This document shows positions 13,722 through 63,307 of a stretch of 64,000 nt of DNA, in pieces. Made by a program: the position numbers and the translations under genes. Under the pieces are notes generated by a model. That model was not told the DNA's origin. It searched no databases and saw only the letters and a list, made by a program, of their open reading frames with translations. The DNA lies in the NCBI GenBank assembly GCA_903916255.1, contig CAIWVW010000010.1:1-64000 (forward strand), in the 5' to 3' direction. This DNA comes from an uncultured Bacteroidota bacterium. GTDB taxonomy: Bacteria; Bacteroidota; Bacteroidia; JABEUT01. Each line of letters starts with the position of its first letter. The first letter of the stretch is position 1.

Positions 13722-16544
13722 ATGAAACAATTACAAAAATTATCAGCTATAATTATTGCAATATTATTTGCAGTGGCAATTCATCCATTTATAACAAGCG
13801 CCCAAAGCCTTGATAAACCTATTCCGTTTGATGATTCCGTAAGGATGGGGAAATTGCCAAATGGCATGATGTATTATATCCGCCGGAATGTAAAACCTGA
13901 GCATCGCGCAGAATTAAGGCTGGCGGTGAATGCCGGAGCAATGGAGGAAAATGACGACCAGCAAGGGTTGGCGCACTTTAACGAACATCTATCATTCGAT
14001 GGAACGGGAGAGTTCAAGAAAAATGATATCATCAATTTTCTGGAATCATCGGGTGTGAAGTTTGGCGCGGATTTGAATGCCTATACCAGTTTTGATGAGA
14101 CTGTATATATGATTCAAGTACCCACCGACTCGGATGTTGTATTTAATAAAGCCTTTCAAATAATTTATGACTGGACCCATTTAAACTTGTTCGACTCGAT
14201 AGAAATCGAAAAAGAGCGCGGCATTGTTATTTCTGAAAGAAGGCTTGGATTAGGTGCTTTCCAGCGTATGCAGGAACAATACTGGCCCATTTTATTTAAG
14301 GATTCAAGATATGCAACGCGCATTCCCATCGGGAAATTAGATGTGCTTGAAAACTGCAAACATTCCACCCTCCAACAATTTTATAAAGATTGGTACCGTC
14401 CCGAACTGATGGCTGTTATTGCGGTTGGAGACTTTGATGTAGATAAGGTGGAAAAAATGATAAAAGAAAAATTCTCCACAGTTCCTGCCAAACCAAACCC
14501 CAGACCGTTGGTATCCTATCCTGTGCCCGATAATAAGGAGTTGCTGATTGCAAAAGCTACCGATAAAGAATGTCCTTATAATATAATAGAACTGGAGGTT
14601 AAACACGACAAGCAATATACTCGCACTGTTGCCGATTACAGAAGAGACCTTACCTATGAATTATTCTCAAGTATGCTGAACAGCCGTATCGGGGAGCTTC
14701 AGAAACAGGAAAACCCGCCATTCCTTTTTGCCCAAATGGGTATTGGCGGGCAAGTAAGAACTAAGGATGCCTTTTCTGCATTTGGCGTTGTGAAAGAAGG
14801 TAATATCCAAACAGGGTTGGAAACCCTATTGACAGAAGTGGAAATGGTAAAACGCTATGGGTTTACCTCCGGCGAGTTTGACCGGGCAAAAAAAGAATTG
14901 TTGCGAAAAAAAGAGACTGCCGTAAAAGAACGGGATAAAACAGAATCGAGAAGGATTGTAAATAAATATGTGCAGGCATATCTTGAGAAAGAGCCTGTTC
15001 CATCAGCTGATTGGGAATATGTATACTGCCAGAAGAACCTGGATGGAATTAAAGTAGATGAAGTAAATAATGTTGCTAAAGAATGGATAACGGATAACGG
15101 ACAAAATACGGTTATCATAATACAGGCGCCGCAAAAAGACAGTGCAACTTTACCTGCTAACGACACCCTACGCAATATTTTCAACAAGGTTAAGAAAGAA
15201 AAAATTGCACCTTATATAGATAAAACCAGTAACCAACCGTTAATGGCTACTAAGCCTGCTCCCGGTAAAGTGGTAGATGAAAAGCAACTGAAAGAACTGG
15301 GTATAACCGAATGGAAGCTTTCAAACGGGGTGAAAGTGGTTTTAAAACCAACTGATTTCAAAAATGATGAAATTTTATTTAATGCATATCGTTGGGGTGG
15401 TTCGTCGCTTGCACCGGAAAAAGACGATATGTCGGCTTCCGCATCAGCAGAAATCGAGGACCAGTCGGGCTTAGGCACTTTCAATTCCACCACACTCGAA
15501 AAAATGATGGCCGGCAAAGTTATTGATGTATCTCCGCAGATGGAGGAACTATCGGAAGGATTCAACGGTAACTTTTCCCCGCAGGATATGGAAACAGCTT
15601 TCCAATTACTAAACCTTTATTTTACGCAGCCCCGCAAAGATGATACCGCTTACGCTGCCTACATGGACCAGCAGAAGGGCTTTGTACAGAATCTGAATGT
15701 CGACCCTTCCAATGCATTTTATGATACTATAGAGGTAACCATGAGCCAATATAATCACCGCAGGAGGCCTTATACCGTAGACTTGCTGAATGAAATAAAC
15801 CAATCGACTGCCTTTAATTTTTATAAACAGGAGTTTTCAGATGCGGGAGATTTCACGTTCTTCTTCGTTGGCAGTTTTAAGCCAGAGGATATTAAGCCCT
15901 TCGTGGAAACTTATCTTGGAAGCCTGCCGGCAGGAAATTCCTCCCATAACTTTAAAGACTTAGGCATAAGGCCTCCAACAGGTGTTGTTTCAAAAACAGT
16001 TTATAAAGGAAAAGAACCGAAGAGTTCCGTTCAGTTGGCATTTTCGGGCCCGGCACAGTTTACCAGGAAAAACACACGAGATATGGAAGCGCTCTCATCG
16101 CTGCTGAGTATAAAGCTACGGGAACAATTACGCCAGGAGATGAGTGGCGTGTATGGTGTAGGTGCAAGAGGGGCTATAATTCACTACCCTAAGGAAGAAT
16201 ACCGATTTACCGTATCCTTCGGCTGTGCCCCTGAAAGAGCAAATGAACTTATAGCTGCAACATATAAAATGATTGATTCGGTTAAACAATTTGGTGCAGG
16301 GGATATTAACCTGCGTAAAATAAAGGAAACCTTCCACAGGCAGCGGGAGGTAGATTTGAAGGATAATAAATTCTGGCTGAACGCAATTTCGCAAACCTAT
16401 AAAGATAAACAGGATTTGATGGATATTCTGAACTATGACAAATGGGTAGATGGCTTAACCAATGACGATTTTAAACGATTGGCAACCCAATACCTCAACA
16501 TGAACAACTATGCCAAGTTTGTGCTTATGCCGGAACAGCAATAA
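13722..16544 (+). CDS. Exported M16 family zinc metallopeptidase (two-domain insulinase type)
   Basis: 940-residue peptidase with an N-terminal signal peptide (about 1-28, cleavage near TSAQS). The inverted zinc motif HxxEH is HFNEH at 85-89. A second acidic ligand is expected in the downstream helix (EIEKERGIVISERRL, near 165). The second half (about 550-930) is an inactive M16-like domain, giving the usual clamshell pair. Periplasmic degradation of peptides is likely from the family, but the substrate is unknown. The gene stands alone with its own promoter and a strong terminator after it. Confidence 0.9.
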   Translation: MKQLQKLSAIIIAILFAVAIHPFITSAQSLDKPIPFDDSVRMGKLPNGMMYYIRRNVKPEHRAELRLAVNAGAMEENDDQQGLAHFNEHLSFDGTGEFKKNDIINFLESSGVKFGADLNAYTSFDETVYMIQVPTDSDVVFNKAFQIIYDWTHLNLFDSIEIEKERGIVISERRLGLGAFQRMQEQYWPILFKDSRYATRIPIGKLDVLENCKHSTLQQFYKDWYRPELMAVIAVGDFDVDKVEKMIKEKFSTVPAKPNPRPLVSYPVPDNKELLIAKATDKECPYNIIELEVKHDKQYTRTVADYRRDLTYELFSSMLNSRIGELQKQENPPFLFAQMGIGGQVRTKDAFSAFGVVKEGNIQTGLETLLTEVEMVKRYGFTSGEFDRAKKELLRKKETAVKERDKTESRRIVNKYVQAYLEKEPVPSADWEYVYCQKNLDGIKVDEVNNVAKEWITDNGQNTVIIIQAPQKDSATLPANDTLRNIFNKVKKEKIAPYIDKTSNQPLMATKPAPGKVVDEKQLKELGITEWKLSNGVKVVLKPTDFKNDEILFNAYRWGGSSLAPEKDDMSASASAEIEDQSGLGTFNSTTLEKMMAGKVIDVSPQMEELSEGFNGNFSPQDMETAFQLLNLYFTQPRKDDTAYAAYMDQQKGFVQNLNVDPSNAFYDTIEVTMSQYNHRRRPYTVDLLNEINQSTAFNFYKQEFSDAGDFTFFFVGSFKPEDIKPFVETYLGSLPAGNSSHNFKDLGIRPPTGVVSKTVYKGKEPKSSVQLAFSGPAQFTRKNTRDMEALSSLLSIKLREQLRQEMSGVYGVGARGAIIHYPKEEYRFTVSFGCAPERANELIAATYKMIDSVKQFGAGDINLRKIKETFHRQREVDLKDNKFWLNAISQTYKDKQDLMDILNYDKWVDGLTNDDFKRLATQYLNMNNYAKFVLMPEQQ

Positions 16545-52435: not shown

Positions 52436-52978
52436 GTGGCTGAATCCATTACCATAACCGGAACATCAAAAGAAGAAAAGTATGCCTCGCTGCTGCCGCA
52501 AATAAAAGCATTGGCAGAGGAGCCCGACCTATATGCCGCATTAGGCAATATTATTTCTGCATTAAAATATGGTATGGGTTTTTTTTGGGCCGGAATTTAC
52601 TTTGTAAAGGAAAAAGTGAAAAGTGAAAAGTTAAAAGTTGGAGAACAGCCGGAATTAAAAATTGAAAATTCAGAATTAGTATTAGGCCCCTTTCAGGGAA
52701 CTGTTGCTTGTACCCGCATCGGCTTTGGTAAAGGTGTTTGCGGCTATGCATGGAAAAATAAAAAAACAGTGATTGTGGATGATGTAAATACGTTCGAAGG
52801 GCATATTGCCTGTAGTTCGGAAAGCAAATCGGAAATAGTGCTGCCCATAGTTGGGAAAGACGGCCAAGTACGAATGATTCTCGATGTCGACAGCGACCGC
52901 TTTGCCGACTTTGACGCTACCGATGAAAAGGCGCTTACCGAAGTTGTTCATATAATAGAAAGCATAGTAAACTCCTGA
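52436..52978 (+). CDS. msrC: Free methionine-(R)-sulfoxide reductase (GAF domain) with an inserted segment
   Basis: 180 residues from a GTG start, cytoplasmic. Repairs free Met-R-sulfoxide with thioredoxin. The GAF-fold hallmarks are ELVLGPFQGTVACTRI, GKGVCGYAW and EGHIACSSESKSEIVLPI, giving the three reaction cysteines C92, C102 and C126. Between YFVK and ELVLGPF there are about 20 more residues than in E. coli fRMsr, encoded by repetitive AT-rich DNA (see that entry). The loop lies away from the cysteines, so activity may survive. The next gene starts 3 bp later. Confidence 0.92.
   Translation: MAESITITGTSKEEKYASLLPQIKALAEEPDLYAALGNIISALKYGMGFFWAGIYFVKEKVKSEKLKVGEQPELKIENSELVLGPFQGTVACTRIGFGKGVCGYAWKNKKTVIVDDVNTFEGHIACSSESKSEIVLPIVGKDGQVRMILDVDSDRFADFDATDEKALTEVVHIIESIVNS
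52610..52672 (+). repeat. Repeat-like insertion inside the fRMsr gene
   Basis: The segment consists of near-repeats of the type aaaGTGAAAAGTGAAAAGTTAAAAGTTGG, then gAATTAAAAATTGAAAATTCAGAATT. Such simple arrays are familiar from Bacteroidota intergenic DNA. In this gene they stay in frame and encode residues about 59-79 (KEKVKSEKLKVGEQPELKIENS). Confidence 0.7.
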
Positions 52979-54610: not shown

Positions 54611-55172
54611 AAAGTTCCCGCAGATTGCGCTGAAAATATTCTTCGCAACCTTAGTAGAAAAGAACAACCGATGCAATTAACCTTATTAATATATTCTACT
54701 TTGTCAAAATATGGTAATAAGGTTTTATATTTTGGTTAAATCTATTTTTCTACTATGGTTAAAAGCAAGAAAAATTTTGGTTTATGCAGCCTAAAAAATT
54801 ATAAATATTGCACTCCTTTTATCATCTTCTTAAATAGTCATTTAAAGTATGCCTTTACCCTATAAATACGTACAGAAAGGTTGTCAGGCAGTTATTTAAA
54901 AATTATTTATAATTGACTGGTAATCTGATACTAACAAGCAGTACTTTTGCCACACATTTGCATATCATTAAATATGTCCAGATTCACATACAAACATGGA
55001 CATCTGTTCAAAACCTTGTCCCGTATAGGATAGAGGGCATTTTTCCATGTTTCAAATACGTGAAAAACCCGGACATTTCACTCTCAGGATTTTTCCACGA
55101 AAAAAGATACTGTTTTCCACTCATAGTTCATAGTTTATCGTTCATACTTTAATCAGGTGTCTGCTTTTTATG
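54611..55172 (+). other. Gene-free 560-bp stretch with an orphan -7 box and inverted repeats
   Basis: No convincing gene lies here. It contains a perfect -7 box TACTTTTG at 54942-54949 with no gene after it, an inverted repeat ATGTCCA...TGGACAT (about 54974-55003), two T-rich/A-rich hairpin-like pairs near 55042-55107, and direct repeats CATAGTTCATAGTTTATCGTTCATAC near 55125-55150. This layout could be a small RNA transcribed rightwards, or decayed repeats; neither is shown. Confidence 0.45.
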
Positions 55173-63231: not shown

Positions 63232-63239
63232 CAAAATTA
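63232..63239 (-). promoter_or_regulatory. -7 box 4 nt before the ribE ATG
   Basis: Minus-strand TAATTTTG matches TAnnTTTG perfectly; its last base lies 4 nt before the ATG at 63227, predicting a leaderless message. Confidence 0.65.
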
Positions 63240-63264
63240 TGAATTATGAATTATGAATTCTAAA
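63240..63264. repeat. Short A/T direct repeats (GAATTATGAATT)
   Basis: The stretch tATGAATTATGAATTATGAATTCTAAATTC between ribE and the GT9 gene is a simple repeat, similar in style to the insertion in the fRMsr gene and to the CATAGTTCATAG stretch at 55125. Confidence 0.6.
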
Positions 63265-63307
63265 TTCGCCCATTATTAGTAACCGAAGAATCCTTAATTC
63301 ATAGCTT

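Follow-up and report, generated by a model that had tools for sequence, protein, structure and literature searches.

How does a tandem repeat of the kind found between genes come to lie, in frame, within the gene of a conserved enzyme? The question is raised by one locus in the window, i.e. the whole stretch of 64,000 nucleotides analyzed here, from an uncultured Bacteroidota bacterium. The initial annotation had noticed repeats inside a gene for free methionine-(R)-sulfoxide reductase (fRMsr), and had suggested that they were captured without breaking the frame. The in-frame repeat is real, consisting of two arrays with a period of seven bases in an insert of 19 residues (57 bp). The gene and the parts of the insert are as follows.

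52436..52978, plus strand: fRMsr, free methionine-(R)-sulfoxide reductase, GAF fold; intact ORF of 180 aa with a GTG start, assigned through PDB sequence relatives
52610..52666, plus strand: 57-bp in-frame insert, residues 59-77, EKVKSEKLKVGEQPELKIE, delimited by comparison with congeners reading VKNNELVL or VKGKELVL; exact ends uncertain by a few bases
52612..52638, plus strand: heptamer array 1, type AAAAGTG AAAAGTG AAAAGTT AAAAGTT (AAAAGTK x4), coding KVKSEKLKV; from the sequence and Tandem Repeats Finder
52631..52633, plus strand: TTA codon at the TGA position of array 1; from the sequence set against the frames of perfect heptamer arrays
52640..52652, plus strand: non-repetitive spacer between the two arrays, GGAGAACAGCCGG; from the sequence
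52653..52678, plus strand: heptamer array 2, AATTAAA AATTGAA AATTCAG AATTA (AATTNNN x4); from Tandem Repeats Finder and pattern search

Judging by its predicted GAF fold and its three reaction cysteines, the protein is an fRMsr. The PDB sequence relatives are 3mmh, 1f5m, 3ksf and 1vhm, with a phmmer E-value of 1.6e-35 against 3mmh, and Foldseek also placed 3mmh_A first (rmsd 1.3, TM 0.82/0.89). The cysteines C92, C102 and C126, described earlier as kept, do not vary among 44 aligned homologues. Fold, conserved motifs and these cysteines are thus common to the window protein and the solved enzymes (3MMH, 3KSF, 1F5M, 1VHM), while the difference lies in the 19 residues gained over its congeners, within the first beta hairpin. 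Tandem Repeats Finder gave a period of 7 for both arrays, with 3.9 copies and 95% matches at 52612-52638 and 3.7 copies and 78% matches at 52653-52678. In the product they sit between YFVK and NSELVLGPFQG.

The same site is empty in the relatives of the window species. The span from FFW to FQG measures 40 residues in the window protein vs 21 in all seven congeners that were read directly (G002, G005, G006, G007, G008, G009 and G010), which have a two-residue turn at the insert point. In an eighth, G003, for which match coordinates alone were used, the two tblastn pieces of fRMsr abut and leave no room for an insert. The 32 relatives detected in GTDB contigs gave matches of about normal length. 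A loop of non-repetitive sequence shared by all relatives was not found among those compared. The comparison is between one draft assembly and relatives that are other species, with about 63-79% identity in fRMsr. Within it the insert is absent from every congener, and its addition in the lineage of the window species only is, as part of the explanation given below, highly probable. Four distant Bacteroidota (L033, L036, L037 and L038) do have 12-18 extra residues at this point; these loops are little alike mutually, and no heptamers were evident in them. Since unrelated loops are found there in four distant lineages, the point appears to tolerate additions.

An AlphaFold model built with 44 sequences (mean pLDDT 92) gives two strands in the region of the insert, at residues 51-62 and 75-87, which are joined by a turn of about 12 residues. 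The corresponding strands in the model of the G002 protein cover residues 53-60 and 63-70, with a two-residue joint. Confidence is lower at the insert, where the mean pLDDT is about 75. The predicted structure suggests that the insert lengthens the first beta hairpin of the GAF fold and enlarges its turn, the fold being otherwise normal. The earlier description of a surface loop is refined here to a predicted extension of the hairpin tip.

The claim that similar arrays lie between genes was confirmed for two in the window, both with a period of 7:

55121..55146, no strand assigned: intergenic heptamer array, TCATAGT type; from Tandem Repeats Finder
63234..63266, no strand assigned: intergenic heptamer array, AATTATG type; from Tandem Repeats Finder and pattern search

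Repeats of this class are plentiful in the intergenic regions of the genome. The pattern AATTNNN x4 has 45 matches per strand, vs 0 for the reversed control. This control is invalid for GAAAAGT, which is its own mirror image, and other lags and Markov sequences were used instead. In 299 kb sampled without bias (the window and 20 contigs picked by number), we found 17 arrays at lag 7 and 18 at lag 14, with 0-4 at other lags, while third-order Markov sequences gave a chance expectation of about 0.1-0.3 arrays per 299 kb. Because arrays with periods of 7 and 14 are so strongly and specifically over-represented, those in fRMsr are not due to chance. A slightly looser scan yielded 36 arrays, which extrapolates to roughly 450 per genome. 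The arrays are short and degenerate, and belong to a limited number of heptamer types, e.g. AAAAGTG, AATTAGT, CAGTGGT and CTTATAA; 35 of the 36 have a heptamer within one base of that of another array, whereas after letter shuffling the number averages 25.5 and reaches 31 at most. Ninety-one of 131 collected arrays fall in no ORF of at least 80 aa, which is not an unbiased fraction, as the collection was partly picked by similarity.

As 7 and 3 have no common factor, a perfect array is translated as one and the same seven-codon cycle, whichever of the three frames of the strand is read, and such arrays may for this reason be unusually easy for a protein to take in. The GAAAAGT cycle contains one TGA, while the ACTTTTC cycle of the opposite strand is open (TFHFSLF). 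At the TGA position, array 1 of fRMsr has the TTA codon listed above and array 2 reads TCA (52670-52672). A T occupies the junction in 11 of 22 coding arrays with the purine strand as sense, in 1 of 36 with that strand as antisense and in 24 of 110 non-coding arrays. Survival of stop-free variants alone would leave such a skew, although the skew is partly true by construction. Thirty-six of the 91 non-coding arrays are closed in all six frames.

The fRMsr ORF is not the only one to have taken up heptamers in frame and remained intact. Inserts built of heptamer arrays were also found in RibF, a GalE-like epimerase and RsmE, all of them without counterpart in some or all relatives, and the suggestion that intergenic repeats enter proteins thus reaches further than first proposed. 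The epimerase (L011:999-1988, minus strand) contains an AAAAGTG-type array, WALEQVKSEKLKVKSNAPYFW, giving nine additional residues where nine congeners read WALKEKxxPYFW. At the same point, the epimerase of G025, a member of another family, has an AACTCCG-type array (AACTTCG AACTCCG AACTCAA; L229), the two being independent insertions at one permissive site. RsmE (L205) gained 11 residues from a CAGTTGT-type array. RibF (L091:3962-5047, contig C22 of the same genome) has two in-frame inserts with inverted heptamer arms, each of which forms a strong hairpin as DNA (z -4.4 and -3.7). The first is restricted to this genome. The second, placed by its sequence in a turn of the riboflavin kinase part, also occurs in G002, G007 and G009, whereas G003, G004, G006, G008 and the outgroups lack it.

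Two further protein classes are suggestive as recipients. The opposite strand of the purine-rich type (CACTTTTCACTTTTC) codes for the hydrophobic core of the signal peptide in about eleven proteins (FSLFAFHFSLISAQ and similar). For one TlpA-like protein, the ortholog signal peptides in G002 and G003 lack a clear array. Of 30 C-terminal domains of the type IX secretion system (T9SS) that were scanned, about 27 of them readable, six have arrays at lag 7, while lags 5, 6 and 8-13 gave no array; the domain (TIGR04183) has at least 150 matches in the genome. Heptamer arrays as a source of signal-peptide cores and of parts of T9SS domains are suggestive only, because composition may contribute, and signal peptides rich in F, L and S could drift towards array-like sequence. 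Side observations of the same kind are CACTTTT-type arrays forming signal-peptide cores, e.g. MKKLIVLFSLFAFHFSLISAQ, at L009, L018, L020, L021, L028, L078, L166, L173, L183 and L186, and T9SS sorting domains with heptamer arrays at L007, L030, L168, L250, L253, L255, L265, L267 and L268.

Where did the bases come from? The explanation that we hold with high confidence is that arrays of the genomic heptamer class gave rise to a tolerated, in-frame addition to the fRMsr hairpin, through a process that recurs in the genome. Several hundred short and degenerate arrays of few types are present, and one or two such arrays would have extended the first beta hairpin at its tip. As the number of bases gained is divisible by three, with no stop among them, the frame would have survived; the arms KVKSEKLKV and ELKIENSEL would then make the hairpin and its turn longer, with no change to the fold or to the three redox cysteines. 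The same process would have altered RibF, the epimerase and RsmE, and probably also signal peptides and T9SS C-terminal domains. The enzyme most likely tolerates the insert, as an addition that is close to neutral.

The most serious competitor is replication slippage of a purely local kind, in which a chance pair of heptamers in the coding sequence (e.g. AATTCAGAATTAG, at the right end) expanded in place and nothing came from elsewhere in the genome. The right part of array 2 (AATTCAGAATTA) overlaps the ancestral N-x-E-L codons and may be such a seed, the units within fRMsr differ in sequence, no longer homology with other loci is seen, and Mrazek (2007, cited in PMC4679880) has proposed slippage of heptanucleotides in bacteria. 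Slippage alone, however, leaves unexplained why the same heptamer types occur at many loci, to an extent beyond that in any shuffled set, and why types are lineage-specific and RibF elements have inverted arms. Matches to the CAGTGGT type number 95 in the window's genome (G000), 55 in G002 and 24 in G007, all three of which have the second RibF insert, vs 0 in G003, 0 in G006, 1 in G008 and 5 in G004, all four without it. G009 is an exception, having the insert with only 2 matches in a genome that is 57% complete. The AACTCCG type likewise has 18 matches in G025 and 22 in G104 but 0-1 in the window's genus. Inserts thus tend to take the type abundant in their own genome, although the match is imperfect. 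Copies of arrays already resident, or machinery that prefers certain units, would account for this better than slippage from random local seeds, although this is no proof; the lineage-specific pools likewise favor dispersal. We infer that the fRMsr arrays probably spread from the genomic pool, and consider local slippage as its sole origin rather doubtful.

Less probable still is the insertion into the gene of a mobile element with a fixed structure, either a MITE or a palindromic element. Some arrays do form inverted pairs, the RibF inserts are strong hairpins and in-frame palindromes are known from Rickettsia (PMC10969869). The fRMsr insert itself carries no folding signal (z -0.03), and at its junctions we saw neither target-site duplications nor the terminal inverted repeats by which a MITE would differ from it. 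BLAST of the element against its own genome showed that it has array sequence alone in common with other loci, and the spacer GGAGAACAGCCGG was not found beside other arrays. With inverted repeats, target duplication and longer homology all absent, a fixed mobile element was rejected for this insert, as was hairpin formation as its cause. The last alternative, an old functional loop that is A-rich and looks repetitive by chance or codon bias, could draw on the 12-18 residue loops of other Bacteroidota. These share no evident sequence or periodicity with the insert, which is itself missing from all congeners read; seven is not a period of codon bias, and the chance rate of arrays given above is far too low. 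We regard it as very improbable.

A more tentative extension of the dispersal reading is that this genus, and other Bacteroidota, may continuously write lineage-specific seven-base arrays into new places, possibly through a dedicated polymerase, or by switching templates, over short homology, to arrays that are already resident. This could be a steady source of protein segments such as hairpin tips, signal-peptide cores and strands of secretion domains.

The palindromic elements of Rickettsia are the closest precedent for the fRMsr insert. These are palindromes of about 150 bp that form families, each with a fixed sequence (Ogata et al. 2000, 2002, in the review PMC10969869). Both cases involve dispersed repeats in frame within unrelated housekeeping genes whose proteins apparently still work, the conserved genes being fRMsr and the RibF, epimerase and RsmE genes here. 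They differ in that the elements described here are degenerate seven-base arrays of variable length, that the fRMsr insert contains no palindrome and matches other loci in its array parts alone rather than along its whole length, and that at one point of a single gene the heptamers vary with the lineage.

Heptamer repeats as such are known from several bacterial groups, and the STRR of cyanobacteria are heptanucleotide repeats. TAACTGA repeats occur in Beggiatoaceae, Cyanobacteria and a few Bacteroidetes, mostly between genes (PMC4679880), and units of 7 nt are frequent among long simple sequence repeats, as that paper cites from Mrazek (2007). The known reports deal mainly with intergenic arrays and possible regulation, coding cases being rare, with one set in a purC gene (PMC4679880). 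Period 7, dispersal, a mostly intergenic position and lineage specificity are common to those repeats and the present ones, the difference being the recurrence of in-frame protein segments here. In the open-licence literature we found no description of protein segments that arise recurrently from heptamer arrays in Bacteroidota, and nothing on the fRMsr loop or its encoded peptides (SEKLKVKSE and similar).

The locus provides a polarized example, with the site empty in sister species and filled in the window's genome, of dispersed simple repeats becoming protein sequence, recurrently within one genome. It thereby makes the origin of small insertions and new segments in bacterial proteins testable. 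It also carries a warning: where heptamers code for part of a signal peptide or T9SS domain, that part may be recent rather than conserved for function.

Two minor observations concern arrays elsewhere. A GGATAAC-type array at 15080-15104 of the window lies in frame within a 940-aa ORF (KEWITDNGQ), where chance is possible. Lastly, an inverted pair of heptamer arrays at L024:1501-1575 forms a hairpin spacer between two putative tRNA genes, the latter recognized by eye.
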